In this document: in pieces, positions 24,000 through 64,000 of the stretch
Numbering within the stretch: the first letter of the stretch is position 1
Layout: each line of letters begins with the position of its first letter
Assembly: GCA_016745035.1 (NCBI GenBank)
Contig: JADGDE010000002.1
Span: 62,433 to 126,432, forward strand
Length of the DNA stretch: 64,000 nt
Source of the DNA: Thiotrichales bacterium
GTDB taxonomy: Bacteria > Pseudomonadota > Gammaproteobacteria > Beggiatoales > Beggiatoaceae
Direction of reading: 5' to 3'
Notes under the pieces: model-generated
Told to the model about the DNA's origin: nothing
Database searches by the model: none
What the model saw: only the letters and a program-made list of their open reading frames with translations
Position numbers and translations under genes: made by a program

Positions 24000-24671
24000 A
24001 TGAAATATAATGGTATGTTGATGAAAATAGATGGGCGAATTCTAACGATAAATAAGGTTATCTGTCGTCATATAGATACACTTAATAATTCTTCAAGGGG
24101 CATAGTTTCGCAGGACATTTTGCAACAATTACGTCACTTTGTAGAACATATCATGCTGAAATTCTATGCTCAGGAACAAGAGAAAGATATTGATGATAAT
24201 TATAAAAATATTGAGTTGGCTATAAAATACGCAAAATCTCGCGCTGATCTAAAAGTTTTGATACGGTTTCATAATTATTTACAGATTTCAGTTTCGCACT
24301 ATACGCTGGATGAAGAAAACTCTGAGCGTCTAATGCTAAAATATTACGAATACCTCCTAAAAATAAAAAATCTTCTACAGGAAAAATTTTCCCTTCATGT
24401 TCTTAATAACCTCGAAAATTTTCCACTTAACATGGACTCAAACTTACGGGAGTATTACGAAAAAATTGCAGATAAAATCAACAAATTTAATAAACATCCT
24501 GTTAGAAAAATGGATAAGTTTTATATTAAAAAGATAAAGCCTTTCTTTTCTAATCAACGGATTTACTATGAGGTAACTTTTACGAAAGCAAGTGATTATA
24601 CAAGTAAGTTTAACAGATTTATAGCATTTACAAGTTTAGAAATAACAAAAAACTATGCAGTAAAATTTTAA
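24000..24671 (+). pseudogene. N-terminal part of an SF1 helicase-like gene, ended by in-frame TAA
   Basis: 223 codons, strongly AT-rich compared with nifJ. ATG at 24000 has AGGA 5 bases upstream. It is helical and charged with no domain I recognise. It ends ...ITKNYAVKF-TAA, and the same frame continues without any shift through 12 more sense codons into the helicase frame at 24708. The flanking peptides (NYAVKF before, LFEDSIEII after) read as one continuous sequence. I therefore treat it as the first quarter of a 914-residue protein interrupted by one nonsense codon. A real two-gene arrangement, or a sequencing error, is the alternative. Confidence 0.65.
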
Positions 24672-24707
24672 TTATTTGAAGATAGCATTGAAATTATAAA
24701 TAATAAT

Positions 24708-30529: not shown

Positions 30530-32689
30530 TTATTTCTTATCTTTAGCCGCTGGCACAGCCAGAAAACGGGCTTTGATGGCTTCGCGGTCAGAGACGGCTG
30601 CGGGGAGTTTTAGGGCTTCGGTAAGGAGGATATTGGCTTTGAGATAGGTTTCTAGTTTTTCTATGCTTTCTCTTTCCAAGTGTGGCGGAATTAGTTTTTT
30701 AGCTTTGGCAAAGACTTGGAGTTTTTCGACAAAATCAGCCCATTGTTTTATATCGGTTTGAGCTAAAAAGGGATGTGATAATAGATGCTGGAGAGCTTGT
30801 TGGTTTTTGCTACTGCGATGTTGTTGAATTTTTGTGAGTAATTGTTGCAAGGCATTAGCAAATTTGCTATCGGGTTTTAGATTTTTAGCATACGCGGAGA
30901 TAATGCCAGTTGGCATTATCTCCGCGTATGCTAAATTGAAAGGTTTGTCGAAGTCAAGTTTAGAAATCTTGTTAAGGGCGCGGTCGAGGTCGCGGGCGAG
31001 GTCGAGGGCGAGGTCGAGGTCGAGGTCGAGGTCGTGGGCGTGGGCGAGGTCGTGGTCGAGGTCGAGGGCGCGGTCGAGGTCGAGGTCGAGGTCGAGGGCG
31101 CGGTCGAGGTCGAGGGCGAGAAAACTATAAAGCACCCGTTTAGCACCGATATTGTGTTTTATATCCAACTGCTGCGCCCAATCATCACACCATTGTAAGT
31201 GTGCAATAAGAGCCTCATCGGTTTGTACCGTAGCTTCCAACGCCGCAAAACTATACTGATAAAATTTATCAGCCTTATCCAATAAACTCACGGTGAGTAA
31301 AATCACCTCTCGCCAGCGGTCATCGGCTAAATATTCTGTTAGGTTTTGGAGACTGCCCTCATCAGCATGTTCAACGATATAACGGGCAGTAAAATATTCT
31401 TGAAAGCTCAGATGCGAGAAGGAATAAATCCCTTGAGCGCGTTCAAGTAACAAACCGTGTTGCTCAATCAGTGACTTTAACACCGCTTCACCATCGACTT
31501 CTGTGCCCTCAGCAACCACGCGGCTAACATAGCTTTGTAAACGACGCGCTACGTCGGTTTTAGCAAAAAAATACTCGCCTTGTTGAAAATACACCGCTGC
31601 AATGTGCGCGAGCATTTGTTGTTTGCGAATCAAGGATAAATCTCGATAAAGCTGGTCTCGTTGAATCTCACGACTGCTGTCCCAGCGTCGAAATAAAGTT
31701 TCTAGGGCTTCATGGTATAAATCCGCACGGCGCGGTGGGAATTGCTGACTATTTTCAAAACTTAAACACAATAAACTCAATAATAAGGGCGTATTGGCAA
31801 GTTCTTTAATGCCTTTGTTGTGTTCCTCGTCAAAGGCTCGCAAAAATCGGGCTTTGGTTTGGGCTTTATCAGCAAACCAATTACTGACAAAATTATGAAT
31901 TTGCTCATCGGTAAAATCCGCCATTTCGATATAGCGAAATTTATCGGTAAAGCTGTAATCATTCGCCGCCACGCGGCAAGTAATCAAGCATTGACAATGC
32001 GGATATTCATTGCTAAAAGCCGTGAGTTTGGCGATTAATTGGCTGCGTTGTTTACCTTCTTGCTGTACTTCGTCCAAGCCATCAAACAAAACCAAGACTT
32101 GTAAGGGCGTTTGTGTCCGTAAACAGCCTTGTAAAAATTCACCTGAAAGCCCATGCCCTTGTAATTGTTGCTGTATGTACTCAAGCAGCTCGCTAGCGCC
32201 CGCATCTTGCCAAGCTTTAAGACCGACAAAAATCGGCAAATGAGGCAATTTATTTTGCGCCGCTTGCAAGGTCAAATAACGTAAAAAAGTGGTTTTCCCC
32301 GCGCCCGGTTTGCCGAGAATAAATAAGCGTTGAGCATTGGCTTGTTTGACTAAATCAATGCCTTTGAGGCGCTGACAGTCGCTGCTGTCGTGCAATTGAT
32401 TCCCAGCGGTTTTAATCGCCTCCAGTTCATAATGGCGAAAAGCGCGGATTTTATCTAAGACATAGACATCGGTGAATAAATCATTGAGCGGGAACAGCTT
32501 ACCCCGCCCTAGCACTGGAATGGTGTTATTGACTTTCTGTAGGTGTTGGTAATAAGCTTCAATTTGTTCGGTACGGGCGCGAATATTTTTTAATTTTTCA
32601 GCCCAGCTTGCCGGTAAGATTCTAAGTAAATGTTGGAATAACCAATTGCTTAAGATATTGGTTAAAATGGTCAGCAACCATTCAATCAT
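30530..32689 (-). CDS. NACHT-domain NTPase (NLR-like)
   Basis: 719 residues. A short hydrophobic or amphipathic N-terminus (about 1-30) is followed by NACHT: Walker A LFILGKPGAGKTTFL (about 125-139), Walker B VLVLFDGLDEV, sensor CLITCRVAA, and the winged-helix region ending in SHLSFQEYFTARYIVE. Then comes a tract rich in repeated Asp-Leu (LDLDRALDLDLDLD...) encoded by a hexanucleotide repeat, an in-frame palindrome, and a helical C-terminus. Bacterial NACHT proteins include antiphage NLR-like sensors. There is no attached effector and no partner gene, so it would be a single-gene system if active. A ribosome site AAGGAAAA precedes the ATG. Confidence 0.85.
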   Translation of the reverse strand: MIEWLLTILTNILSNWLFQHLLRILPASWAEKLKNIRARTEQIEAYYQHLQKVNNTIPVLGRGKLFPLNDLFTDVYVLDKIRAFRHYELEAIKTAGNQLHDSSDCQRLKGIDLVKQANAQRLFILGKPGAGKTTFLRYLTLQAAQNKLPHLPIFVGLKAWQDAGASELLEYIQQQLQGHGLSGEFLQGCLRTQTPLQVLVLFDGLDEVQQEGKQRSQLIAKLTAFSNEYPHCQCLITCRVAANDYSFTDKFRYIEMADFTDEQIHNFVSNWFADKAQTKARFLRAFDEEHNKGIKELANTPLLLSLLCLSFENSQQFPPRRADLYHEALETLFRRWDSSREIQRDQLYRDLSLIRKQQMLAHIAAVYFQQGEYFFAKTDVARRLQSYVSRVVAEGTEVDGEAVLKSLIEQHGLLLERAQGIYSFSHLSFQEYFTARYIVEHADEGSLQNLTEYLADDRWREVILLTVSLLDKADKFYQYSFAALEATVQTDEALIAHLQWCDDWAQQLDIKHNIGAKRVLYSFLALDLDRALDLDLDLDRALDLDHDLAHAHDLDLDLDLALDLARDLDRALNKISKLDFDKPFNLAYAEIMPTGIISAYAKNLKPDSKFANALQQLLTKIQQHRSSKNQQALQHLLSHPFLAQTDIKQWADFVEKLQVFAKAKKLIPPHLERESIEKLETYLKANILLTEALKLPAAVSDREAIKARFLAVPAAKDKK
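30884..30935. repeat. Perfect 25-bp-arm palindrome inside the NACHT gene
   Basis: Arms 30884-30908 and 30911-30935 are exact reverse complements, separated by two bases. On the coding strand it reads, in frame, LAYAEIMPTGIISAYAK, between the Asp-Leu tract and the C-terminal domain. Such a perfect palindrome is not needed for coding and looks like an inserted palindromic element. Confidence 0.85.
30977..31121. repeat. Hexanucleotide tract (GAGGTC/GAGGGC units)
   Basis: About 145 bases of near-perfect 6-bp units, mainly GGTCGA with GGGCGC/GGGCGA variants. On the NACHT coding strand each unit encodes Asp-Leu or Ala-Leu/Arg-Ala. Because the unit is a multiple of three, slippage changes protein length by two residues without shifting frame. 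Confidence 0.85.
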
Positions 32690-49600: not shown

Positions 49601-50459
49601 GGCTGATCTTGGTGTGGCTTTTCATAAAATCAGCCGTTTTATTGAAAAAAGTATTAAACATTTATTGATTCTTGCTGATGATGAAAACCATCACCAAGCT
49701 ATCTTAAAAGCGATTGATAATGAACAAATTCATTGTGAATTGGTGGAAACACCCGATGCAGCACTTGCTATTTTGAAGGCACAAGAATACGAAACCATCG
49801 TCATTGATATGGATGTGGCTGAGCAAACGGGGATACATTTCTTAGAACGCTTAAGTCGCGATGAGGCGCTATTGGAGATTCCGATTATCCTTTATAGCGA
49901 ACGTGAACTGACTATCGAAGAAAACCAAGTGCTGCAAGCTTGTGGTAATAATATGACCATCAAATCCGTATACTCACCAGAGCGTTTACTGGATGAGGTG
50001 AGCTTATTTTTGCATGAAGTTGAGGCTAAGCTACCTGAGGAGCAGCAACAATTATTGCGCATGGTACATGATAAAACCACCATTTTACGTGATAAAAAAG
50101 TGCTGGTGGTTGATGATGACTCCCGTAATATTTTTGCCCTGACTGCCATTTTAGAGAGCAAAGAAATGGAAGTATTAATGGCAAGCAATGGCAAAGAAGG
50201 TTTAGAGACTTTAGCCAATATACCGGATATTGATATTGTTTTAATGGATATTATGATGCCAGAAATGGATGGCTATGAAGCGATTAAAGCCATTCGTGAT
50301 ATTCCAGATAATCGACGGCTACCTGTGATTGCACTAACAGCCAAGGCGATGCAAGGAGACAGAACTAAATGTATTGAAGCAGGAGCTAATGATTATTTAG
50401 CTAAACCTGTGGATACAGATAAGTTGCTATCCTTACTGCGTGTTTGGTTGTACAAATGA
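46626..50459 (+). CDS. Giant hybrid histidine kinase (4HB-HAMP-GAF-HK-REC-REC'-REC)
   Basis: 1277 residues from the ATG at 46626 (AAGGA 6 bases upstream); 16 upstream codons overlapping the previous gene were discarded. Order: TM (about 8-28), four-helix periplasmic sensor, TM (about 198-222), HAMP (about 222-320), GAF (about 355-490), a Gln/Glu-rich coiled coil with tandem EELQAQQ repeats (about 510-580), HisKA MSHELRTPLNSLL (H595), HATPase_c, then three receiver modules: D939 (IILDVGLPQIDG), a degenerate one (VIDMDVAEQTG), and D1208 (VLMDIMMPEMDG). It can probably integrate several phosphorelays. GAF and HAMP regions are paralogous to the next gene. Confidence 0.92.
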   Translation: MLIRTKLLLNGFITVACLAGIGGMGLFYIEKVVKEAQILVDQQAIPIVKIDRMNTLAWESWSTLIMHISSTDEVNMDTAQTALEKFDEELNSTHGELLKIYQSLNQVAIENNKTDQGHVDQIQFLLAQWQAFQKDAAEIISLSQDFAKEEAMIVLTERSHKAFTQIHDTMVQLIDHHRANMYKLNETAGTIQRQAMLFLLVLTLVVIGIAGALWYIITKSITAPLETALHTAKQITDGNLTVRAEHYNQSDEIGRLLSGMNAMAASLQGTINESSKVLSKLAAGKLNTTVSDGFKGDFLAIKTALENTMQTLALTTEQNQQQTWLKSGQAQLNDKLSGNQALVQLSKNSIDFIVNYLEMDVGVLYLVNCHDPDNIYLEMQASYGYHHRADAQYKFDIGEGLVGQAYLDKKTIQRDHEPGEYQFIVQSGLSQVVPKHIIFLPFIYENEVKGVVELGHHKPFSHIELEFLQQVMPSLAIAVHTSESRSQTQDLLLESRAQADVLQRQKEFMEESNEKLKNQTEELQAQQEELQAQQEELRQSNEELEQRGQLLTRQRQSVEQKNTELEQAKTAIQIKAEELELASKYKSEFLANMSHELRTPLNSLLILAQLLTSNREGNLNQKQIECAQTIHSAGKDLLNLINEILDLSKVEAGKIEVQLSDMDMQDFSDSLEQKFRHVAEDKGIYFKIKRDENLPERMHTDEQRLQQVINNLLSNAFKFTEKGGIDLTIRRPNTEDNLSASGLTPEQGLVFSVQDSGIGIPEDKQRIIFEAFQQADGTTSRRYGGTGLGLSISKQLSHLLGGELQLHSEEGKGSCFSLFLPEIMVANVSTSESAAPVAHKPSQADLPAPSVSDSTDNENNDDVITLPEPILDEGNAILDDRNNLEAGDQSLLIIEDDKVFAGILLELAREKHFKCLLANNGVTGLDFAEQYQPSAIILDVGLPQIDGWTVMERLKANSKTRHIPVHFMSGTNQVQDAQKMGAIGYALKPVSMADLGVAFHKISRFIEKSIKHLLILADDENHHQAILKAIDNEQIHCELVETPDAALAILKAQEYETIVIDMDVAEQTGIHFLERLSRDEALLEIPIILYSERELTIEENQVLQACGNNMTIKSVYSPERLLDEVSLFLHEVEAKLPEEQQQLLRMVHDKTTILRDKKVLVVDDDSRNIFALTAILESKEMEVLMASNGKEGLETLANIPDIDIVLMDIMMPEMDGYEAIKAIRDIPDNRRLPVIALTAKAMQGDRTKCIEAGANDYLAKPVDTDKLLSLLRVWLYK

Positions 50460-50492
50460 TAAAACGGTGGTTTTTTCAATGAGGAAAATAGC

Positions 50493-52415
50493 ATGTCATG
50501 GTTAAAGCTCAAAATTAGTGGCCGTTTAGTCGCTGGTTTTTCCGGTTTATTATTACTATTTAGCATTACCAGCTATTTAGCCATTATCAACATGGAAAAA
50601 TTGGCAAATAGAACTGAAATGTTATACAAACACCCCTTTACGGTCAGCACCGCTGTTTTGCGTATCCGAGCCAATGTCATTAAGCTGTATGATTTAGTCG
50701 AATATTACCGTCTCGATGTTAAACATTATGATCTATTAACTTTCAACAAATCCCTAGCCAATCTAAACCAGACGGTTGAGGCGGATTTTAATATCATACT
50801 GGAGCGTTTTTTAGGAGAAAAAGGAGATATAGAATACAGCTTTCAACTCTATAAAGATTGGTATATCTTATTGCAAGAAGAAGGACATTTATTAACCGAA
50901 CAATATACAGGACAAGCGGCACAATTACAGGTAAAACAGCAAACACAAAATGCTGTTATAGAACAGAAATTAAGCCATTTTTTACAACAAACTCAAGAGG
51001 GCTATCATGAGTTGACGCAAACGCCAACCCTATCACCGATGGTACATGAACAATATCAGACGCTGTTTAAACTGAATCAAGCTGCGCTAAGTATTCATCT
51101 GTATATCAAAAAATTACAACAAATTTTTTTACAATTACAAAATATTAACAACGATGCCGAACAAGCTGAATTACTGTTACAAATAAAAACTATTAAACAG
51201 ACTATTCGTCAACAACTCGATGTCTTAAACCAAACAGCAGCCCTGCAAACATTTAATATGACCGAACTGATACCTTCTTATAAAAAATGGCAAAAAGTTT
51301 TTGATACCAATCTCATGCAACTATTTAATTCAGAAAGACAATTGCGTCTGCAAAAAATTGAAAAAAATAATCATTTATTATTTGCCCAACTCAATGAGCG
51401 CATCGACCATATTAATAACTTTGCTAAAAATAAAGCTGATTTATTCCTTAATAATGCTATCGAACTGAAACAAGACACCTTGGACTCGATGTATTATTTA
51501 ATCGCTTTTATTGTTGTTTTAATGACTTTATTTGCTATTCTAACTATTCGTAGCATTGTAATTCCCCTTAGACAAACCGTCGCCTTTGCAGAACACTTGC
51601 GTCAAGGACAGCTTAGTACGCGCTTGGAAAATAAAGACAATCACGACGAAACCGCTGATTTATTACGTGCAATGAATCATATGGCAGGTAGTTTCCAACA
51701 CGTCATCGACGATACCCGTGAGACCCTAGATCAACTGGCACAAGGTAAAACGGATATTCACTTACAAGCAGATTTTATCGGCGATTTTAATGCGATTAAA
51801 ACCGCTTTGCATACCACAGCGGACAAACTGGCGGCTAACCATATAGAAAATGAACAACAAGCATGGCTAAAAACTGGGCAAACCTTACTGAACAAGCACA
51901 TTCAAGGCAAACAAAACCTAAGCGATTTAAGCAAAAATACCTTAGACTTTTTGGTCGACTACCTCAATTGTAATGTCGGCTTATTTTATTATTGCCATCA
52001 AGATGAAAATCCACCTTACTTAAGTATTCATGCGAGCTTTGGTTATCCCCGCTCACAAAATGAATTACAACAAGATAAATTTTACAAAGGCGATGGTTTA
52101 GTTGGACAATCATTGATTAACAAACGCATTTTGGTACGAGAGCACAAAACCGAAGAATTGCATTGCGTGCCCCAATCTGGCTTAGTATGGGCTGTGCCCA
52201 AGCATGTCTGTATCATTCCTTGTTGCTATGAAGGCGAAGTCAATGCGGTGATAGAATTAGGTAATTTCAATGGTTTCGATGCAACCCAACAGGCCTTTTT
52301 GGAACAAGTGATGCCCAATATTGCGGTGGCAGTACACACCTTAGAATCCCATGAACAACTCACGCCTTTATTGCAAGAAGACCTAAATAATAACGATGAG
52401 AGTTCGCATGGCTGA
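50493..52415 (+). CDS. Membrane sensor with HAMP and GAF domains but no kinase
   Basis: 640 residues. TM (about 10-32), long helical periplasmic sensor, TM (about 330-350), HAMP (about 352-405), a second HAMP-like/linker segment (about 405-450), GAF (about 465-615), then a short acidic tail. The GAF and linker match those of the preceding kinase (LSKN..DF.V.YL, KGDGLVGQ / GEGLVGQ, VPKH, QVMPN/S). It ends where a coiled coil and kinase would begin. Its stop overlaps the start of a receiver-PAS-kinase gene, suggesting a split sensor-kinase. Starts 33 bases after the giant kinase. Confidence 0.87.
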   Translation: MSWLKLKISGRLVAGFSGLLLLFSITSYLAIINMEKLANRTEMLYKHPFTVSTAVLRIRANVIKLYDLVEYYRLDVKHYDLLTFNKSLANLNQTVEADFNIILERFLGEKGDIEYSFQLYKDWYILLQEEGHLLTEQYTGQAAQLQVKQQTQNAVIEQKLSHFLQQTQEGYHELTQTPTLSPMVHEQYQTLFKLNQAALSIHLYIKKLQQIFLQLQNINNDAEQAELLLQIKTIKQTIRQQLDVLNQTAALQTFNMTELIPSYKKWQKVFDTNLMQLFNSERQLRLQKIEKNNHLLFAQLNERIDHINNFAKNKADLFLNNAIELKQDTLDSMYYLIAFIVVLMTLFAILTIRSIVIPLRQTVAFAEHLRQGQLSTRLENKDNHDETADLLRAMNHMAGSFQHVIDDTRETLDQLAQGKTDIHLQADFIGDFNAIKTALHTTADKLAANHIENEQQAWLKTGQTLLNKHIQGKQNLSDLSKNTLDFLVDYLNCNVGLFYYCHQDENPPYLSIHASFGYPRSQNELQQDKFYKGDGLVGQSLINKRILVREHKTEELHCVPQSGLVWAVPKHVCIIPCCYEGEVNAVIELGNFNGFDATQQAFLEQVMPNIAVAVHTLESHEQLTPLLQEDLNNNDESSHG

Positions 52416-54138
52416 TATTAGTTTTTGCATTCTCATTGTAGATGATAATCACAATAACCTGTTTACACTCAGAAGCTTAATTAATGAACACTTAGATGTT
52501 GAAATTGTTGAGGCTGATTCTGGTGCAAAAGCCTTAGAAGTATTGATGAAAAAACAAGTACATCTCATTATTTTAGATGTGCAAATGCCTGAAATGGATG
52601 GTTTTGAAACCGCCAGTATTATTCGTTCGGTTAAACGTACCCAAAACATTCCTATTGTCTTTTTAACCGCTGCCTTTAAATCAATCGAATTCCAAGAAAA
52701 AGGCTTTGCTGTCGGTGCGGCAGATTACCTCACCAAACCCATTGATGCCCCGCAGCTTATTAACCGTATCCGGGTTTATTTACGCTTTATCGAGCAAGAA
52801 TACCAACACAACTTTGATCTAGAAAATAAAGTTGAGGCCCGTACAGCTGAATTACAAGCAGCGCGTAATCAACTGGAAAAGCGAGTCGAGGAGCGCACAG
52901 CAGAACTGGCAGCGGTCAACCAATCGTTATCGCATGTCAATCACGAGTTACAACAACAAAGTGAACAACACCAATCGATTTTAGATGCGGTTGGTGAGGG
53001 TATTATTGGTATCGACCTCAATAGCAAAGTACGTTTTGCCAATCCAACCGCTTATGAATTACTTGGCTACCAGCAAGGAGAAATGCTTAACGCACATTTC
53101 CGCAAACTGATTCACAACCAATATATTGATCAAAACTTTTTCCCCACCGAAACCAGTATTGCGTGGTCATTATTAGAAAAAGAAGGCACACATCGCGCTA
53201 ACGACCAAGTGTTTTACCGCAAAGATAACCGTTATTTCCCGGTTGAATACGTCATGGTCCCTATTTTTGAAAATGATGCTATTTCTGGTGCAGTTATCAC
53301 TTTTACAGATATTAGTGAACGACAAAAAATTGCTGAAAATTTACAAGCGGCAAAAGAAATTGCTGAGCAAGCCAATTTTGCTAAAAGCTGTTTTCTTGCC
53401 AATATGAGTCACGAATTACGCACCCCGCTGAACGCCATTATCGGCTACAGTGAAATCCTCCTTGAAGACATTAACGATGATATTAATGAAGATGATTTTG
53501 AGTTAGATGGGGAAAATATTTTAGGTGATTTGGATAATATCAACAATGCTGCCAAACACCTATTGGGCTTGATTAATGATATTTTAGATCTATCTAAAAT
53601 TGAAGCCAATAAAATGACCGTACATCCCGAAGTATTTGAACTAGAACCCTTGGTCACATGGCTCAAAAGCACGATTAAACCTTTAATTGATCAACAAGGC
53701 AATCATCTATTAATTAATTATCCTGACATTGAATTCGAGATTTATTTAGATTTAACCAAACTTCAACAAGTCTTATTAAACTTATTAAGTAATGCCAGTA
53801 AATTTACCGAAAAAGGCGATGTCTGTTTAGATATATTTATCAGTGAACAAACCAATAATAAAGGCACAGAAACACCCTGGCTGACTTTTATCGTCACTGA
53901 CAGTGGCATCGGTATGACCGAAGAGCAACAACGGCGCTTGTTTGCCCCCTTTACACAAGCCGATGCTTCAACCACCCGCGAATACGGCGGCACAGGTTTA
54001 GGACTAACCATTAGCAAGCATTTTACCGAAATGATGGGCGGCATTATTAATGTCACCAGTGAACTCGGCAAAGGCAGTAGTTTTAGTGTCGAACTCCCCA
54101 GTCGCTTACCCAGTCCCGTGGAAAAAAGTGATTCATAA
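52396..54138 (+). CDS. Cytoplasmic REC-PAS-histidine kinase
   Basis: 580 residues. An N-terminal receiver (LIILDVQMPEMDG, D61) is followed by a long coiled coil (about 135-195), PAS (about 195-305, IIGIDLNSKVRFANP), HisKA MSHELRTPLNAIIGY (H339), and HATPase_c (NLLSNASKFT, GTGLGLTIS). No TM helix. Two candidate ATGs (52396 and 52408) both fit; the first overlaps the upstream gene by 20 bases. With the receiver first, it can take phosphate from another kinase, probably the giant kinase encoded two genes upstream, and then signal on. Confidence 0.9.
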   Translation: MRVRMADISFCILIVDDNHNNLFTLRSLINEHLDVEIVEADSGAKALEVLMKKQVHLIILDVQMPEMDGFETASIIRSVKRTQNIPIVFLTAAFKSIEFQEKGFAVGAADYLTKPIDAPQLINRIRVYLRFIEQEYQHNFDLENKVEARTAELQAARNQLEKRVEERTAELAAVNQSLSHVNHELQQQSEQHQSILDAVGEGIIGIDLNSKVRFANPTAYELLGYQQGEMLNAHFRKLIHNQYIDQNFFPTETSIAWSLLEKEGTHRANDQVFYRKDNRYFPVEYVMVPIFENDAISGAVITFTDISERQKIAENLQAAKEIAEQANFAKSCFLANMSHELRTPLNAIIGYSEILLEDINDDINEDDFELDGENILGDLDNINNAAKHLLGLINDILDLSKIEANKMTVHPEVFELEPLVTWLKSTIKPLIDQQGNHLLINYPDIEFEIYLDLTKLQQVLLNLLSNASKFTEKGDVCLDIFISEQTNNKGTETPWLTFIVTDSGIGMTEEQQRRLFAPFTQADASTTREYGGTGLGLTISKHFTEMMGGIINVTSELGKGSSFSVELPSRLPSPVEKSDS

Positions 54139-54174
54139 AAGCATAAAATAACAACTATAAAACCGCAGATACTA

Positions 54175-54188
54175 ACTGATATTATGCA
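54175..54188 (+). repeat. MITE-1 left-end remnant
   Basis: ACTGATATTATGCA, a decayed MITE-1 terminal repeat 20 bases before the start of the NACHT-ATPase fusion gene. Confidence 0.45.
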
Positions 54189-54208
54189 AACAATATGGGG
54201 AGAATTTA

Positions 54209-57200
54209 ATGCTCGACCTACTAGTGCCATTAGGTATCACTCATGCCACAACCGCACTGTTATATCCCGTCTTAAACAATATTGCCCAAGGCGTGGCAGA
54301 AGATGCCACAAAAAGCTATGTCGCCAGCGCCTTTAGTAACGTATTTTCTGTCATCAATAAAAAAGCCTTGAGCAAAGCAACCCTGCTGGCAATCACCGAA
54401 TTGCTGGATTTAATCGAAAACGAATTGCTGGACAATGATGTCTCTGATGAACGGGTGCGCAGCATGATAAAAGCTGTTGAGGTTTTTTTAGCAAAAGAGG
54501 CGATAAAACAAGCACTCGCCGATGCGTTCCTCGAGCCTGACTACATACTTGACCCGAAAGTATTTGTCGACAGTTGGGCGCAACTCCCTGACCCTTGGCC
54601 GCATATGCTGCCAGAAGACTACTCTTGGCAACGCATCGCTAAACGCTTTGCCCGCAAAGTGCGCGATATTCGCGATGCGGATACTGAACTCAAGCAAACT
54701 TTCGACAATTTGCAACAACGCGGCAATGCTGAGGCGCTAAAAGAACTGCAAGGCTTGCCGCCTGATTTTGATTTAGACCTCTACCGCGAAGCCTTGGTTG
54801 AGAAGTTTGGTAATTTGAACATGGAAAGTGTCGATACGACCGGGGTGTATTATCAAAATACCATTCAATTATGGAGCGTATTCGTACCGCAGTCAGTGCG
54901 TGAATGCCACACTTACCGCCCGCAATTGCTGGAACTCCCCAAAGAACACCTACAACGCCTGCTAGAACAAGGCGAAATCGATGAAGCCGAACTGCGTGAA
55001 TTGCAAAAACAAGAAACCGAACAGCGCAGCAGTTTTTTAGAACAACCTTTACAGCCAGTAATTGAATTGCTCAAGCCTGAGAATTTGGATGGCAACAGGA
55101 TGATTCTCGGCGACCCCGGCTCGGGTAAATCCTCTTTGTTGCGCTTTTTGGCACTGGAATGGGCGCGCAATGAAAATGTTAATCAACGCTATACTCAAAC
55201 CTTGCCGCTGCTGATTGAACTACGCGATTACAATCGCTGGCAATGCTCTCAGGGCAAAAGCTTTCTGCGTTATTTGCACGAAGCCCCAACTTGGCATCGA
55301 CTCAATCAACATACGCTGGATTATTTACTCAAACAAGATAATCGCGTGTTGTTGCTGCTGGACGGTCTGGACGAAGTATTCGACCCCAATGAGCGCGAGC
55401 AGGTGATGAACGACATTCACCGCTTTAGCAATGAATATAAACACACCCGCATTATCGTTACCTCGCGGGTCGTAGGCTATAAAGCCCAACGCCTACGCGA
55501 TGCAGAATTTCAGGATTTTATGTTACAAGACTTGGACGATAAGCAAATCGAAGACTTTCTGCAACGCTGGCATAAAGTGGCATTTACAGACCAAGCCGAT
55601 GGTGAGCGCAAACGCGAGCGGCTGGCAAAAGCGATAAACAATGCTAGCTCCAAAATGCTGGCGGGCAATCCCTTGTTGCTGACCATGATGGCAATTATCA
55701 ACCGCTACCAAGAACTGCCGCGAGACCGCGTGCTATTGTATGAAAAAGCTAGTGAAGTGTTGCTACAACAATGGGATACCGAACGTGGTTTGCAGGATTT
55801 TCCCGGCTTAAGCAATGACATTGATTTACGCGCCAAGAACGCTATTTTGCGCCGTATTGCCTACACCATGCAAACGGGTAGATCTGAAGGACAAGCTGCA
55901 AATATTATTCATGGCGATGCGCTGCTGAAGTTGATTGAGGACTATTTGCGTGAACAATTGCATTTTGAGCAAGCCCGGGCAATGTCGAATGCGTTGATAA
56001 AACAATTGCGTGAGCGGAATTTTATTTTATGTTTTCTCGGTGCAGATAGTTATGCTTTTGTACAGAGAACATTTTTGGAATATTACTGTGCAGCAGAATT
56101 AGTCTACCAATTCAAAGATAAACAATCGTTAAATATAGAAGGATTAATCGAGGTATTTGATAAATATTGTCGGGATGATGATTGGCGCGAAGTGTTGCGC
56201 TTAGTTTGTGGGCAGATTGATGAAGGGTTTGTAGGGTTGATTGTGGAATTTCTGGCTATGCGGACGGATTTAGGCAAGTGGAATGGAGAAACTGAATTAC
56301 CTGAAATGGCTTTGGCTGTTTGGTGTTTAGGAGAAGTTAAAAGTCTTTCCAAGCTAACAGCAGTTGGGGAATTATTGTGGCAACAAATAGTGAAAATGTT
56401 TCAGCAGTTGCACTACATGAACCACTCAAATGAAGTATTGATTGCTGCTGAAGATATTGGAACACAGTGGCCAGGAAAACATTCATTACCAAATACTCTT
56501 GATTGGCGTTATACAAATACTTATGCCCAATACCAATGGGCAAGCTTATTAGCTGCTGTAATCCATGACCGCCAACAAATTGTTTCGCTTATTATGAATT
56601 CTGAAAGTACAATGAGAGAAGGGGCAATTGAAGCATTAGTATTACATTGGCCTGATGAAGATACTCGACAATTGCTCTATGAACGTTCTATTCAAGATGA
56701 ATCAAAATTTTTCCGCAGTACTGCCTTGGAAGAATTGGGCAAAAATTGGCCAGATGCTAACACTCGAAAACTACTCTGCGAGCGTGCCATTGAAGATGAA
56801 GATAAAGATGCTCGTACTGCTGCACTGGAAGCATTGGTCAAAACTTGGCCTGATGATGATACTCGGCGGTTGTTAAGTGAACGTGCCGTTCAAGATGATG
56901 ATGAGGATGCTCGTAGTACTGCGCTAGAAGTGTTGGTTAAGACTTGGCCTGATGACAATACTCGGAAATTTCTAAGCAAACGTACCGCTGAGGATGAACA
57001 TGAAAATCCTCGTAGTACCGCATTGAAAGTATTAACCAATATTTGGTCTGATGATAACATTCGTCAATTATTAGTGGAACGTGCTTTTCAAGATAATTCT
57101 TCAGAAATTCGTTGTGTTGCAATGCATTTGTTGGTTAAAAAATGGCCAGATAATGATACTCAATTACTATTAATGAACTCTTTTGATAGCACGAAATCTG

Positions 57201-58807
57201 ATAAAGTCCGCTTAGCTATGGCAAACCTCCTAATATCTAATTGGTGGCACAGTTTTGACGTACGAAATTTTATTAGGAAACAAGCTAAAAAAAATTCCTC
57301 GAAAGATAATAAACACAAAGATTTTAAAAAATTAATTATTAAAGCTAACAAACATTTATCTAAAAAATGGGAGGAATATTTTTCTGGAACGATTGAAATG
57401 GATAATATACCAGAAAGAGAGCGTGCTTATCCCGCTATAAAAATACATAAATTCAGACTGATAAATATAGGCGCTTTTTCTGATACAAAAGTTATTAATC
57501 TTAATTCAACATCCCTTTTTCTGGGAAATAATGCAGCAGGAAAGTCAACCATTTTAAAGTGTTTAGCTCTTGCCGCTATTGGGTCAGACGCAGCTAATGA
57601 AGTTGAGGAAAATGCATCATCTTACCTCAGAAAAGGAGCTGAGTATGGGACTATAGAAGTTCAATTTGACTTGATTCCAGATCCTGATTGTTACAGTGAA
57701 GAATGGGGGAAAGTTACTGTTGGTTTAAGTATAAAAAATGGTTCTGATAGGTTTACTCCAACATCTCATAATCAAATGACTTTATCCAACTTTAATAATA
57801 TAGAAAAACTAAATGAGTTGAGGAATGAGACTGATTTTTCATTTGGTCTCACATGTGCTTATGGGGCGACTAGAACCTTTAGTGATAATAGATATGGTGT
57901 TGAACCTGAACTTTCAAAAGATGAAAATGAGTGGGTAATTCCATTATTTCGTTGGGATGCTAGAGTTATTAACTCTGAGGTTTTAGGTAGAATGTTTTTT
58001 GGAGACTTAAGAAATATTAAAAATGCTCCAGATAAATTACAGAAAGAATTTGTGAAAAAGATACAAATTGCATTAAAAAAATTTGTACCAGAATTACAGC
58101 TTTTACCAACAAATTCTTCTGCGGATATAAATTTTAATAATGTCGAATTAAATTTTTCTGAATTAAGTGATGGTTATAGAAGCTTACTTACCATATGTGG
58201 ACATTTTATACGTTCTTCATTTAAGTCTGTTCATTGGGAACTGGATGCAACTCAACTTCATGGTTGTATTTTAATTGATGAAGTAGATTTACATTTGCAT
58301 CCTTCATGGCAAAAATATGTTGTAAAAAATTTACAAGATGCTTTTCCAAATATACAGTTTTTATTATCTTCACATTCTCCATTAGTTGCTGGCTACCTTG
58401 ATAACTCTAATATTCATTTAATTCAAACGGATCAAAATGGTTCGAAAACATTATTATTAAGTTCTCTTATTTCTGAAACAAGTACGATGAAAGCTTGGCG
58501 AGCAGATCAAATTCTTACTGGGCCGGGCTTTGGTTTAGAGTCATCAACAAGTGTTGAGGCTGATTCCTGGGAAACAGAATATGATGAGTTATGTAGTATT
58601 GCTCCAGATAAACGTACACACCTTCAGAAAAAACGACTCGATGAATTATCTGCTTTACTGGAACGAGAGATTCCTCGCTGGCAAGAAACACCTCGCAAAA
58701 GAGCCGCAGCCCAAAATTTTGAAAAATGGGCTTTGGAAAAAGTGTTGTCTCCAGAAGCTATTGAAGATACTTTGCAATTATTACAACAATTGGATAGTAA
58801 AGAATGA
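54209..58807 (+). CDS. NACHT-HEAT-PtuA fusion ATPase (Septu-like defence protein)
   Basis: 1532 residues. 1-230: helical N-terminal domain. NACHT: Walker A MILGDPGSGKSSLL (about 301-308), Walker B VLLLLDGLDEV (about 381-388), TSRVVGYKA, winged-helix end with RTFLEYYCA. About 790-1015: six or so 33-residue HEAT-like repeats with the consensus ALExLVKTWPDDxTRxLLxERA. About 1075-1480: an SMC/RecF-like AAA ATPase with FLGNNAAGKSTIL (about 1105-1112), ELSDGYRSLL signature (about 1319), ILIDEVDLHLHP (about 1355) and LLSSHSPLV (about 1386), as in PtuA of Septu. The codons become visibly more AT-rich from the repeats onward, which suggests a joined origin. GGGGAG precedes the ATG; the stop overlaps the HNH gene (ATGA). 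Confidence 0.88.
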   Translation: MLDLLVPLGITHATTALLYPVLNNIAQGVAEDATKSYVASAFSNVFSVINKKALSKATLLAITELLDLIENELLDNDVSDERVRSMIKAVEVFLAKEAIKQALADAFLEPDYILDPKVFVDSWAQLPDPWPHMLPEDYSWQRIAKRFARKVRDIRDADTELKQTFDNLQQRGNAEALKELQGLPPDFDLDLYREALVEKFGNLNMESVDTTGVYYQNTIQLWSVFVPQSVRECHTYRPQLLELPKEHLQRLLEQGEIDEAELRELQKQETEQRSSFLEQPLQPVIELLKPENLDGNRMILGDPGSGKSSLLRFLALEWARNENVNQRYTQTLPLLIELRDYNRWQCSQGKSFLRYLHEAPTWHRLNQHTLDYLLKQDNRVLLLLDGLDEVFDPNEREQVMNDIHRFSNEYKHTRIIVTSRVVGYKAQRLRDAEFQDFMLQDLDDKQIEDFLQRWHKVAFTDQADGERKRERLAKAINNASSKMLAGNPLLLTMMAIINRYQELPRDRVLLYEKASEVLLQQWDTERGLQDFPGLSNDIDLRAKNAILRRIAYTMQTGRSEGQAANIIHGDALLKLIEDYLREQLHFEQARAMSNALIKQLRERNFILCFLGADSYAFVQRTFLEYYCAAELVYQFKDKQSLNIEGLIEVFDKYCRDDDWREVLRLVCGQIDEGFVGLIVEFLAMRTDLGKWNGETELPEMALAVWCLGEVKSLSKLTAVGELLWQQIVKMFQQLHYMNHSNEVLIAAEDIGTQWPGKHSLPNTLDWRYTNTYAQYQWASLLAAVIHDRQQIVSLIMNSESTMREGAIEALVLHWPDEDTRQLLYERSIQDESKFFRSTALEELGKNWPDANTRKLLCERAIEDEDKDARTAALEALVKTWPDDDTRRLLSERAVQDDDEDARSTALEVLVKTWPDDNTRKFLSKRTAEDEHENPRSTALKVLTNIWSDDNIRQLLVERAFQDNSSEIRCVAMHLLVKKWPDNDTQLLLMNSFDSTKSDKVRLAMANLLISNWWHSFDVRNFIRKQAKKNSSKDNKHKDFKKLIIKANKHLSKKWEEYFSGTIEMDNIPERERAYPAIKIHKFRLINIGAFSDTKVINLNSTSLFLGNNAAGKSTILKCLALAAIGSDAANEVEENASSYLRKGAEYGTIEVQFDLIPDPDCYSEEWGKVTVGLSIKNGSDRFTPTSHNQMTLSNFNNIEKLNELRNETDFSFGLTCAYGATRTFSDNRYGVEPELSKDENEWVIPLFRWDARVINSEVLGRMFFGDLRNIKNAPDKLQKEFVKKIQIALKKFVPELQLLPTNSSADINFNNVELNFSELSDGYRSLLTICGHFIRSSFKSVHWELDATQLHGCILIDEVDLHLHPSWQKYVVKNLQDAFPNIQFLLSSHSPLVAGYLDNSNIHLIQTDQNGSKTLLLSSLISETSTMKAWRADQILTGPGFGLESSTSVEADSWETEYDELCSIAPDKRTHLQKKRLDELSALLEREIPRWQETPRKRAAAQNFEKWALEKVLSPEAIEDTLQLLQQLDSKE

Positions 58808-59634
58808 ACTACATATCCTTTAAACCTGAACAACTAAGTGATGAACAGAAAATTTGGTGGAAAAATTGGGTTAAAAAAGCAGATATTGCAACATCAAAAA
58901 TTTTGAAAAAATATAATAATGGAGAGGAAATAAAATTTAATAATCAATTATGGTCAGAATTAAAGAAATGGTTGCTAGAATATATTTTTCATGGTAAATG
59001 CGCCTATTGCGAAAGTGAGTTATTAGATACAGAATGGGGTGATGCTGATCACTATAGACCAAAGGGACGAGTTAGTATTTTAGTTGATACACAAGTTGTC
59101 GTGGTAAAGCAAGACAATAGACCTCACTCTGGTTATTTTTGGTTAGCTTATGATTGGAAAAATTTATTTCCTAGTTGCAGGCGTTGTAATATAGAAAGAA
59201 AAAAAGATATTTTTCCTGTCGTAAAAAAACATGTTTTTGAGCCACAAAAATGTTTAAGTTGTGATGAACTGGATCAAGAGGAAGAACCATTATTATTGCA
59301 TCCTTACCGAGAAGACAGCCTTCACCCACGTCATCACTTAGAATTTGATAAATATGGTCGTATACACCCTAAAAACGGGAGTAAAGCTGGGAATGTATCA
59401 ATTGATATTTATAATTTAAACCGTGAGTATTTGGTAAAAAGTAGGCAAAAAGCTCAACAGACTAATTGGCTTGAATTTTTACATATTCTTTCTGAAGACG
59501 ACAAGAATATCAAACAACAAAAGTTATCTAAATTTAGGAAACATATTGATAATGGAACTAAAGAGTATTCTGCTGCTATAGATGACTATATAAATCTTTG
59601 TCTTAAAGAGGCAAATCTAAAAAGAACTACATGA
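58804..59634 (+). CDS. PtuB-like HNH endonuclease
   Basis: 276 residues. The HNH/zinc site is assembled from CAYCES (C66, C69), DADHYRPK (D80-D82-H83) and FPSCRRCN (C125, C128). The EEPLLLHPY segment and a following H-x-x-F-D-x-x-G-R-I are typical of Septu PtuB nucleases. It should nick or cut DNA when released or positioned by the ATPase. It overlaps the upstream gene by four bases (ATGA), so the two are cotranslated. AT-rich like the C-terminal half of its partner. Confidence 0.88.
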   Translation: MNYISFKPEQLSDEQKIWWKNWVKKADIATSKILKKYNNGEEIKFNNQLWSELKKWLLEYIFHGKCAYCESELLDTEWGDADHYRPKGRVSILVDTQVVVVKQDNRPHSGYFWLAYDWKNLFPSCRRCNIERKKDIFPVVKKHVFEPQKCLSCDELDQEEEPLLLHPYREDSLHPRHHLEFDKYGRIHPKNGSKAGNVSIDIYNLNREYLVKSRQKAQQTNWLEFLHILSEDDKNIKQQKLSKFRKHIDNGTKEYSAAIDDYINLCLKEANLKRTT

Positions 59635-59795
59635 ACTCAACTCATAACTAACTATTAAGGCGGGTATTTGCTACCACCAAACAGCATTAATAATGGTGTT
59701 TACTCATTTATTCAGTACAAGAGTAATGCGCCAACAGAGATTGGTATAAGCTATAAAAATTAGCTTGATTTTTTGCATTCAAACACCACGAAGAC

Positions 59796-59817
59796 AGGGA
59801 AAGCAAAAGCTTTCCCT
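59796..59817. terminator. Bidirectional hairpin between ptuB-like gene and trxB
   Basis: AGGGAAAGC / GCTTTCCCT, a 9-bp stem with an AAAA loop, between convergent genes. No long T tract, so efficiency is uncertain. Confidence 0.5.
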
Positions 59818-59828
59818 ACCAGCAGTAC

Positions 59829-60800
<972 letters not shown>

Positions 60801-60830
60801 TTAAGTTATCGTCAACAGTATGGGGATGGA

Positions 60831-61466
60831 TTAGGCTTTTATCACGGCTAAGGTGTCGCAAAAGGCTTGTAGACTCGGCGAGCGATTGCGCTCTACCACT
60901 AAATGCTTAGCAATCTGTTTTGACCAATTGCGCTTGGCATCTAAAAGTTTTCTATCGCGTTTTTTTAAGCTCAGCAAAGGCTTGTCTACGCATTCGGCGA
61001 GTTTTTCCCAAGTGCCGCAAATGCTGTCTTGTGCATAAGCGGCTAAAGCTTTGGGGTCATAATCGGGATACGCGCTGGCAATCGCTGCCTCATCGCCTAA
61101 AAACCACGCTTCCAACTCTTCAATGGCAAAACAAAAATGCAGCGCCAAATCAGGATACGCCTGCTTAAATTGGGCTAATTGCGCCCCGAAGCTTTCGGGG
61201 TCTTGGTCGTCCAAATCCATTAGCACCATAATCACTTGCCCCGCGCGCTTGAGTTTGGCGTAGGCTTGTATTTTCGCGGGCAGTTGTCCAAGCAAGCTTT
61301 GGTCGTGACGCGAGGGTTTTTGTTCGATACCAGCGAGCTTGCCAATGCCTTTATGCTTGTGAATCAGCCATGTGTGTTTGTCGGCATATGCCCCCAGCAA
61401 TTGCGGCATAATAATCGACAAGGTGGTTTTTTCACATTGCCCTTCGACGAGAAATTCAAAGTGCAT
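60831..61466 (-). CDS. DUF4276 (Toprim-like) protein
   Basis: 211 residues. FLVEGQCEKTTL gives a Toprim-type glutamate (E8), VIMVLMDLDDQDPE gives the DxD acidic cluster, and CFAIEELEAWFLGD is the conserved DUF4276 block. Together these suggest a Toprim metal-dependent nuclease fold, as in OLD-family or RloB-like proteins. Its ATG is 2 bases after the stop of an AAA ATPase gene, the usual partner of DUF4276. Proposed role: nuclease half of a split OLD-like pair. Confidence 0.82.
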   Translation of the reverse strand: MHFEFLVEGQCEKTTLSIIMPQLLGAYADKHTWLIHKHKGIGKLAGIEQKPSRHDQSLLGQLPAKIQAYAKLKRAGQVIMVLMDLDDQDPESFGAQLAQFKQAYPDLALHFCFAIEELEAWFLGDEAAIASAYPDYDPKALAAYAQDSICGTWEKLAECVDKPLLSLKKRDRKLLDAKRNWSKQIAKHLVVERNRSPSLQAFCDTLAVIKA

Positions 61467-61468
61467 GG

Positions 61469-62704
61469 TTAATGCTCGGCATCAATGTGTTCGCTGTACC
61501 ACAAATTGCCTAAGCTCAAACCCGATTCGACCATTTCAATAATGGCGGGAATATCGGCAGCGCGGGTAAGTTTGGAGAAGCCATCGGCTTGTTTTTCCAG
61601 CACCCAAACTTCTTCGGGATTGAGTTCATCGACTAAATAGGGCTGGTGGGTGGTGACGAATAATTGCACCCCGCCTTTTTTCCCCGTCGCTGAGGCGCGG
61701 AACTCATGCACTAAAGTATCGAGCAATTTATGATACAAGCCGTTTTCTGGCTCTTCGATACAAATCAAGGGGGCGGGGCTGGGGTCTTCGAGCAATAATA
61801 AATACGCGAATAATTTTAGCGTGCCATCGGAAACGTGCTGGGCATAAAAGGGTTTTTTAAATCCTTCGGCGTGGAATTGTAATAACAAACGCCCATCGCT
61901 GGAGCTTTCGGTGTTAATCGCCTGTACACCGGGGATTTTATCGGCAATTTCTTCGAGGACACGGGCAAAGCGTTTCGGATGCTCTTGCTCCATAAACTGC
62001 ACCACATTGCCAAGGTTGCTGCCATCGCGGTTGAGGTGTTTTTGCGGACCGACACGGGGCAAATCTCGCGCCGCATCGGGGGTGAAATAAGACAAATACC
62101 AGCCTTCGATAAAACGCCGAAATTTAGCAATGCGCGGGTGTTCTTTCAAATTGCCCAGCGTGGCGATACCCAACTGGCGCGGGTCATCGAGTTCAACCCA
62201 TTCTTTGGCGTTGTCTTCTTGGTCGCCGGAATCAATTTCTAAAGCATTGCCCGCCCAAACGCTGCCTTTGCCTTTTTTTAAGTCCAAAAATGAATAAGGT
62301 TTGCCTTTGCGCTGTCCTTGTCGCCGCTGACGCAGACGTTCGAGTAAAATCACCGGACGCGCATATTTATCCGCGCCAATTTCGAGATTATAAGACATCG
62401 GGCGCTCGTTTAAGCTCTCGCGGTAATAAATCTCAAACTCAATCGCCCCGCGTTTGCCCAAAGACCGTAACTTAGCAAAACCGCCCCGATCTTGGCGATA
62501 ACAGGCATCTTCAACCCCAAAAGTCAGGCAATCGGCTAAAAAACCAAAGGCATCGAATAAACTACTTTTACCCGTGCCATTGCGCCCAATCACCACCGTC
62601 AGCGGCTCTAGTGGGGCTTTGTTGCGCTCACTAATGGTACGCCCCAAAGACACATCTTTCAGCGCTCGATAGTTTTTAATCCGAAAGCCTTCGATTAACG
62701 CCAT
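61469..62704 (-). CDS. AAA ATPase (OLD/RecF-like), partner of DUF4276
   Basis: 411 residues. FRIKNYRALKDVSL opens a RecF/SMC-type ATPase. Walker A is VIGRNGTGKSSLF, the signature region is HVSDGTLKLFAYLL, Walker B is PLICIEEPENGLY, and the switch is FVTTHQPYLVDEL. It lacks a coiled coil and a fused Toprim domain; that domain is the next gene. The ATG is 3 bases after the cysG stop, so translation is coupled to a housekeeping gene. Base composition is like the host, not AT-rich. Confidence 0.88.
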   Translation of the reverse strand: MALIEGFRIKNYRALKDVSLGRTISERNKAPLEPLTVVIGRNGTGKSSLFDAFGFLADCLTFGVEDACYRQDRGGFAKLRSLGKRGAIEFEIYYRESLNERPMSYNLEIGADKYARPVILLERLRQRRQGQRKGKPYSFLDLKKGKGSVWAGNALEIDSGDQEDNAKEWVELDDPRQLGIATLGNLKEHPRIAKFRRFIEGWYLSYFTPDAARDLPRVGPQKHLNRDGSNLGNVVQFMEQEHPKRFARVLEEIADKIPGVQAINTESSSDGRLLLQFHAEGFKKPFYAQHVSDGTLKLFAYLLLLEDPSPAPLICIEEPENGLYHKLLDTLVHEFRASATGKKGGVQLFVTTHQPYLVDELNPEEVWVLEKQADGFSKLTRAADIPAIIEMVESGLSLGNLWYSEHIDAEH

Positions 62705-62707
62705 GCG

Positions 62708-64000
62708 TTATTCGCTCTCGCTCTTAAACCATTTGAGTTTTTCTTGCAGCTTGACCACGTCGCCGACAATAATCAAACTCGGCGGTTTGACATTTTCGTT
62801 TTTAATCAAATCGGGCAAAGTTGAAAGCGTGCCCGTGAACACGCGCTGCTCAGGCGTGGTGGCTTGTTGTACTAGGGCAATTGGTTTATCGGCGGGTACG
62901 CCGTGCTCCATCAGTTTTTGACACAAAACCGGCAAGCCCATATAGCCCATATAGACCACCACGGTTTGCTGTGGCTGTGCCAGCGCTTCCCAGTTGAGGT
63001 TCATGGTATTGTCTTTCAGGTGTCCGGTGACGAATAAACAGGATTGCGCGTAATCGCGGTGAGTGAGCGGAATACCTGCATACGCCGCTGTGCCGAGGGC
63101 GGCGGTAATCGCGGGCACGACTTGGAAGTTCACACCCTCAGCGGCTAAGGTTTCGATTTCCTCTCCGCCACGACCAAAGATAAACGGATCGCCGCCTTTG
63201 AGCCGTACCACGCGTTTGTTTTCTTTCGCCAGTTTTGCCAATAATTTATTGATGTCTTCTTGGCGCAAGGCATGGTCAGCACGGGCTTTGCCGACATAAA
63301 TGCGCTCGGCATCACGGCGGGTCAGCTCTAAAATCGGTTTGGAGACCAAGCGGTCATAAACCACCACATCGGCTTGCTGCATCAAACGCAAGGCGCGGAA
63401 GGTCAATAAGTCGGGGTCGCCTGGGCCTGCGCCGACTAAATAGACTTCGCCCTTGGCTTTTGGTGCGGCTTGCTTGAGGCATTCTTCGAGGCGCTCTTCA
63501 GCTTCTTGCTCGCGTCCACTTAAGACCATTTCCGCAATCGAGCCTTGCAGGAGTTTTTCCCAAAAACGCCGCCGCTCGGCTTGCGATTCATAACGCCCTT
63601 TAACTTGCGAACGGAATTTTTTAATCAAGCCTGCCAAACGCCCATAAGCATTGGGAATCAGGCTCTCAAGTTTGACCCGCAACACCCGCGATAATAAGGG
63701 CGATGCGCCATTGCTAGAAATGGCAATTTGTAAAGGGTCGCGGTCGATGATAGAGGGAAAAATCACATTGCCTTGCGCCGACTGGTCAGCGACATTGACC
63801 AGTTTTTCATGGTCTTGTGCCAGTTGGTTAATTTCTTGATTGACCTCGGCGCTATCGGTGGCGGCGATGATTAAATATTGCCCATCCAAATCCCGATGTT
63901 GAAATGCGCGGGCATGGTGAATAATCGTGCCTGCCTCTGCCAAGGCTAATAAATCATCCCGACTCTCAGGCGAGACCAAGGTCACATGTGCGCCAGCTTT
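62708..64000 (-). CDS. cysG: Siroheme synthase CysG, 5'-truncated by the window edge
   Basis: 430 residues are visible; the frame is open at position 64000 (KAGAHVTLVSPES), so about 35-40 N-terminal residues are outside. The N-terminal half is the precorrin-2 dehydrogenase/ferrochelatase (LIIAATDSAEVNQEI, NVADQSAQGNVIFPS). The C-terminal half is uroporphyrinogen-III methyltransferase (VYLVGAGPGDPDLLT, VVRLKGGDPFIFGRGGEE). It makes siroheme for sulfite and nitrite reductases. The GTG at 63983-63985 is not the real start. Confidence 0.95.
   Translation of the reverse strand, partial: KAGAHVTLVSPESRDDLLALAEAGTIIHHARAFQHRDLDGQYLIIAATDSAEVNQEINQLAQDHEKLVNVADQSAQGNVIFPSIIDRDPLQIAISSNGASPLLSRVLRVKLESLIPNAYGRLAGLIKKFRSQVKGRYESQAERRRFWEKLLQGSIAEMVLSGREQEAEERLEECLKQAAPKAKGEVYLVGAGPGDPDLLTFRALRLMQQADVVVYDRLVSKPILELTRRDAERIYVGKARADHALRQEDINKLLAKLAKENKRVVRLKGGDPFIFGRGGEEIETLAAEGVNFQVVPAITAALGTAAYAGIPLTHRDYAQSCLFVTGHLKDNTMNLNWEALAQPQQTVVVYMGYMGLPVLCQKLMEHGVPADKPIALVQQATTPEQRVFTGTLSTLPDLIKNENVKPPSLIIVGDVVKLQEKLKWFKSESE

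Follow-up and report, generated by a model that had tools for sequence, protein, structure and literature searches.

A Septu-type operon in a Thiotrichales bacterium encodes a PtuA ATPase fused to a putative NLR-like NACHT–HEAT receptor

A two-gene operon within a 64,000-nucleotide stretch of DNA (the window) from a Thiotrichales bacterium probably encodes a Septu-type defence system in which the PtuA ATPase carries an N-terminally fused NLR-like receptor – a NACHT module followed by HEAT repeats – whose assembly would control PtuAB. We put the probability of this reading at roughly two in three; sequence and structural models provide the anatomy, and from these we infer every functional step, phage detection included. 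The hallmark of Septu is a PtuA6-PtuB2 oligomer with antiphage activity. To our knowledge plain Septu has no obvious sensor. Septu with a candidate NLR-type sensor fused in cis appears to be new, and the wider recurrence of sensor–PtuA fusions is the more interesting point.

The upstream gene is a single unbroken frame of 1532 codons, its ATG start preceded by a GGGGAG site, and its product consists, in order, of NNH2, NACHT, six HEAT repeats of 33 residues each and a complete PtuA ATPase (Table 1). The gene for an HNH protein follows, the two frames sharing the four bases ATGA. In addition to the matches in Table 1, Pfam recognizes NACHT with an E-value of 2e-16, HEAT_2 in four stretches over residues ~820-1000, and AAA_21/AAA_15 over residues ~1080-1393, and the motifs of both P-loop NTPases are intact. 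An earlier reading made without database searches (the sequence-only reading) had described the 1532-residue frame with two complete P-loop ATPases, the 33-residue repeats between them and the four-base overlap with an HNH gene, and its coordinates and motif positions proved correct. It had also raised mis-assembly of two genes as a possible source of error, which is unlikely: the gene (C22:116641-121236 in whole-contig numbering) is uninterrupted by any stop and lies in the interior of a long contig with no contig end nearby. A further match is present on the same contig at 360 kb.

Table 1. Coordinates of the fusion gene, its domains and the adjoining nuclease gene, numbered from the first position of the window.
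Feature	Positions	Strand	Basis
Fusion protein NNH2-NACHT-HEAT-PtuA, 1532 aa	54209..58807	+	Pfam, PADLOC
NNH2 (NACHT N-terminal helical domain 2), residues 25-210	54281..54838	+	PF22734, E 5e-38
NACHT STAND NTPase, residues 299-456	55103..55576	+	Pfam and intact motifs
HEAT-type repeats of 33 residues (six, plus a degenerate seventh), residues ~806-1012, proposed sensor	56624..57244	+	HEAT_2, E 9e-18
PtuA ABC-type ATPase, ~M1064 to 1532	57398..58804	+	PADLOC E 1e-52, phmmer, AF2 model
PtuB HNH nuclease, 276 aa	58804..59634	+	PADLOC E 7e-44, AF2, alignments

Several lines of evidence place the C-terminal ATPase with PtuA. It matches the PADLOC PtuA1 profile over residues 1099-1506 at 177 bits, as against 61 bits for generic AAA_21, and a phmmer search of solved structures with this domain returns PtuA of retrons Ec83 and Ec78 and of Septu (E 2e-21 to 1e-14), the next family being AriA at E 0.005. 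AlphaFold (AF2) models of the PtuA domain and of PtuB were built from alignments of related loci, and the best 50 Foldseek matches in the PDB to the PtuA-domain model (pLDDT 81) are all PtuA, including Septu 8eea and 8ee4. The Walker A (residues 1105-1114), signature (LSDGYRS, within 1316-1325), Walker B (1353-1365) and H-loop (1387-1391) motifs are all intact. Profiles, solved-structure searches and model thus agree that the domain belongs with PtuA, other AAA_21 proteins being much more distant, as the sequence-only reading had predicted. Because it misses the cut-off of the retron-specific NCBIfam PtuA equivalog (124 versus 500 bits) and lies on a long branch of the PtuA tree, it is, as judged from sequence and model, a divergent member of the family. 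Just before the domain, a GGAGG at 57370-57374 stands 23 nt upstream of the in-frame ATG 57398 and may be either what remains of a stand-alone ptuA start or an internal start site.

The HNH protein falls in the PtuB family, again as had been proposed, by agreement of the PADLOC PtuB1 profile, solved-structure searches and its AlphaFold model (pLDDT 95.7), for which there are eight matches under E 0.001, all of them PtuB. Alignments show its HNH motif to be conserved (C66/C69, H83, N120 and C125/C128). The operon therefore shares with Septu a PtuA ATPase with complete ABC motifs and an adjoining PtuB HNH protein, the models matching the solved E. coli complexes 8ee4/8eea, but differs in the ~1060 extra residues of NNH2-NACHT-HEAT borne by PtuA and in its divergent PtuA branch. 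The same genome also contains a conventional two-gene Septu (L070, G000:C3:68500-74500) with a 449-aa PtuA and a 212-aa PtuB.

Retrons of type I-A (Ec78/Eco7 and Ec83/Eco4) provide the closest solved structures for both PtuA and PtuB and offer a parallel in that PtuAB is controlled by an upstream module; in retron Ec83 the msDNA keeps PtuAB autoinhibited and infection frees it (review PMC12948488). Here, however, the controller would be the fused NACHT-HEAT protein. The operon's contig has no RVT_1 reverse transcriptase, the genome's RVT_1 matches all being on other contigs, and an Rfam scan of positions 50000-64000 found no retron RNA; membership of retron type I-A was rejected on these grounds.

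In the N-terminal half, the NACHT Walker A (GDPGSGKS, within residues 299-308), Walker B (LLLLDGLDE, 381-389) and VTSR motifs are intact, and the six in-register repeats match one another on average at 14.7 of 33 positions. The Pfam match and these motifs bear out an earlier assignment of the NACHT-repeat module to the bacterial NLR-related type. A sister genus of the same family encodes a stand-alone NNH2–NACHT–HEAT protein of 1101 aa without PtuA (L008), which over its whole length shares 65% identity with the NACHT–HEAT half of the fusion protein. Identity is 72% over NNH2 (residues 1-215), 83% over NACHT (290-460) and 86% over residues 461-700, and falls to 25% over residues 701-800 and 41% over the repeats. 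The NACHT core thus appears conserved and the repeat half replaced or fast-evolving – the pattern expected of a sensor, and one that fits the role suggested for the repeats in the sequence-only reading. A related NACHT–HEAT protein on an Azotobacter plasmid (L027) carries, on our reading of the alignment, a SIR2-like N-terminal segment, and because L008 stands alone and L027 has this other N-terminus, the NACHT–HEAT half is, on these sequence comparisons, a portable module. Where PtuA begins, the fusion protein is missing a C-terminal tail common to the unfused NACHT–HEAT relatives.

Published bNACHT proteins have an N-terminal effector, a central NACHT domain and a C-terminal sensor (PMC12169576). 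The fusion protein resembles them in its NACHT NTPase with divergent repeats C-terminal to it, and in having NNH2 in the usual N-terminal effector or adaptor slot, but PtuA comes after the repeats, so that the recognizable nuclease machinery is C-terminal to the proposed sensor and would act via another ATPase and an HNH protein encoded by its own gene. The sequence-only reading had seen in this a reversal of the sensor-effector order; the nuclease part does follow the sensor, but because NNH2 occupies the N-terminus the order is better given as adaptor or unknown–NACHT–sensor–PtuA, and is no clean reversal. That reading had also taken a shift to AT-rich codons as a sign of recent fusion. Third-position GC does drop from about residue 600, the PtuA and PtuB parts being the most AT-rich, but the unfused L008 gene shows the same drop; the shift alone therefore gives no date for the fusion, and dating by codon composition was rejected.

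Just downstream of the operon, on the opposite strand (60831-62704), genes for a 411-aa AAA_21 ATPase and a 211-aa DUF4276 protein match the PADLOC candidate defence pair HEC-01 (E 1e-183 and 1e-71), and the fusion gene is therefore near another putative defence system. Elsewhere in the window, two AT-rich ORFs of 223 and 678 aa (24000-26744, forward strand) match consecutive parts of the 900-residue PADLOC candidate PDC-S53, a helicase-type protein whose gene here seems to be broken into two. Another NACHT protein, shorter at 719 aa and with no PADLOC match, is encoded at 30530-32689 on the reverse strand, and there is a further NACHT-like match on the same contig at C22:48813-49955.

In searches that sampled species and had limited sensitivity, no second NACHT–HEAT–PtuA protein was found in ~1,980 genomes, in 72,556 plasmids, or in PtuA-profile scans of genomes from six phyla. 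A scan of genome contigs with the 1532-aa protein alone and a scan of viral contigs yielded no relative, a phage collection gave PtuA-like matches only, at the C-terminus of the fusion protein, and alignments of PtuB and of NACHT drew a few distant matches from viral sequences, NACHT and PtuA being reported together in none of them. A literature search, whose reach stopped short of the main Septu structure and ABC-ATPase classification papers, did not find NACHT or STAND combined with Septu or PtuA. The fusion could be of recent origin or simply uncommon.

PtuA is found joined to many other modules. Among the 80 PtuB genes nearest to that of the operon, taken from GTDB genomes, nearly all of the closest have an upstream PtuA of 630-1330 aa, mostly with a long N-terminal fusion that is chiefly SIR2. 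Pfam identifies SIR2–PtuA in L078, L079, L084 (weakly) and L087, a phosphorylase-type domain plus SIR2 in L081, TIR–PtuA in L134 and LRR–PtuA in L123. Three Acidobacteriota loci (L080, 3402-7004; L082, 3672-6995; L083, 3006-7004) encode SIR2-PtuA with PtuB downstream, and have a long WD40 propeller inserted between the N- and C-terminal halves of the PtuA ATPase. In a Verrucomicrobial protein of 1327 aa (L085, 456-4439), TIR-STAND-TPR, a plant-NLR-like order, is joined to PtuA, and PtuB comes next. The SIR2 loci (L078-L084) and L085 share with the operon described here its two-gene layout and large N-terminal PtuA module, and differ in that the module is SIR2 or TIR-STAND-TPR rather than NACHT-HEAT.

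Pseudomonadota and Myxococcota genomes were sampled for further PtuA fusions. PtuB is present with nSTAND5–TPR–PtuA (L061, 1210 aa), with TPR–PtuA (L062) and with an NPHP3-type STAND–PtuA of 1798 aa (L173). SAVED is the cyclic-nucleotide sensor domain of CBASS systems, and in one of the Myxococcota-set genomes (L176, 1412-4315) it is fused to a PtuA-like ATPase; no PtuB was found by profile within the stretch examined, and a second-messenger-controlled Septu is possible. A 1624-aa candidate (L175) was dropped, its N-terminal 1200 residues having no domain and resembling an overlapping-frame run-in in GC-rich DNA.

In the PtuB tree the operon's PtuB groups with the SIR2–PtuA set (SH-aLRT 89), and constraining its PtuA to that set slightly improves the likelihood of the PtuA tree (p-AU 0.85), which is compatible with the PtuB result. 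A single clade of the four STAND–PtuA proteins (the fusion protein, L061, L085 and L173), and with it a single origin of such fusions, is rejected at p-AU 5e-9, a result to be taken with some caution because the fusion protein and L173 are long branches. NLR/STAND modules have therefore apparently been joined to PtuA more than once; apart from the fusion protein, such joins occur at a minimum of three further loci (TIR–STAND–TPR, nSTAND5–TPR and NPHP3-type).

We propose that the HEAT repeats recognize either a component of the phage or a host protein that the phage disturbs, whereupon the ADP-bound NACHT module would exchange nucleotide and oligomerize. Oligomerization could cluster or release the attached PtuA domains and so render the PtuB HNH nuclease active, which would cleave tRNA, ssDNA or nicked DNA of either the phage or the host. 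NACHT-HEAT would thus take in cis the regulatory role that RT-msDNA plays from outside in retron-Septu. The DNA-cutting output envisaged in the sequence-only reading survives as one option only, because PtuAB of retron-Eco7 depletes tRNA-Tyr (PMC11555353) and PtuAB of other systems cleaves or depletes it (PMC11555353, PMC13096335).

Control of PtuAB by a fused receptor draws support from the identity of PtuA and PtuB by three independent routes, from the intact motifs and from the four-base overlap of the genes, as judged from sequence and models; the occurrence of the exact architecture in one genome only and the position of NNH2 in the usual effector slot weigh against it. The main competing explanation, which we think rather unlikely, is that PtuA is itself the sensor or assembly platform, PtuAB sensing infection directly, and that NNH2-NACHT-HEAT is an additional effector or adaptor arm. 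It arises because domains that are usually effectors take this position in relatives: the PtuB clade nearest to the operon's PtuB is mostly paired with SIR2-PtuA, where SIR2 is probably an effector and not a sensor, and TIR-PtuA exists, so that the N-terminal partner of PtuA need not be a sensor. Moreover, plain PtuAB with no fused sensor already gives defence (PMC13096335). However, NACHT with repeats is an architecture of signalling and sensing that is not known to kill catalytically, PtuA also occurs with repeat-only, STAND, LRR and SAVED fusions, and the repeat half diverges fast, all of which argue against this explanation.

More doubtful still is an accidental or recent fusion, in which a resident NACHT-HEAT gene met an incoming ptuAB and the halves work separately, ptuA perhaps also being translated from ATG 57398. 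The sister gene without PtuA, the loss of the tail conserved in the unfused family, the more AT-rich PtuA/PtuB part and the GGAGG upstream of the internal ATG would all suit such an origin, but the 23-nt spacing exceeds the normal distance of a ribosome-binding site and the unfused gene is likewise low in third-position GC. Both halves have kept all of their catalytic motifs, and analogous sensor-PtuA fusions arose repeatedly. That assembly artificially joined two genes is scarcely credible: the finding of the exact fusion in a single genome would fit, but the frame is open throughout and well inside its contig, and parallel fusions occur in unrelated genomes.

A broader proposal, for and against which we see the odds as evenly poised, is that Septu serves bacteria as an all-purpose plug-in effector and has repeatedly become linked in cis with NLR-like receptors, the fusion protein being a 'Septu inflammasome' in which NACHT oligomerization directly drives PtuA-PtuB assembly, with independent counterparts bearing TIR-STAND-TPR, nSTAND5-TPR, NPHP3-type STAND, LRR, SIR2 and SAVED modules. 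NACHT plus repeats is the kind of receptor used by animals and plants, here joined to the ATPase of an antiphage nuclease, and such sensor–PtuA fusions are natural chimeras for studying how NLR assembly switches on a nuclease. The covalent link between an NLR-type receptor and PtuA offers a directly testable answer as to how infection may be sensed in at least one branch of Septu, and the repeated independent fusions suggest that many immune receptors of bacteria share PtuAB as their output module.
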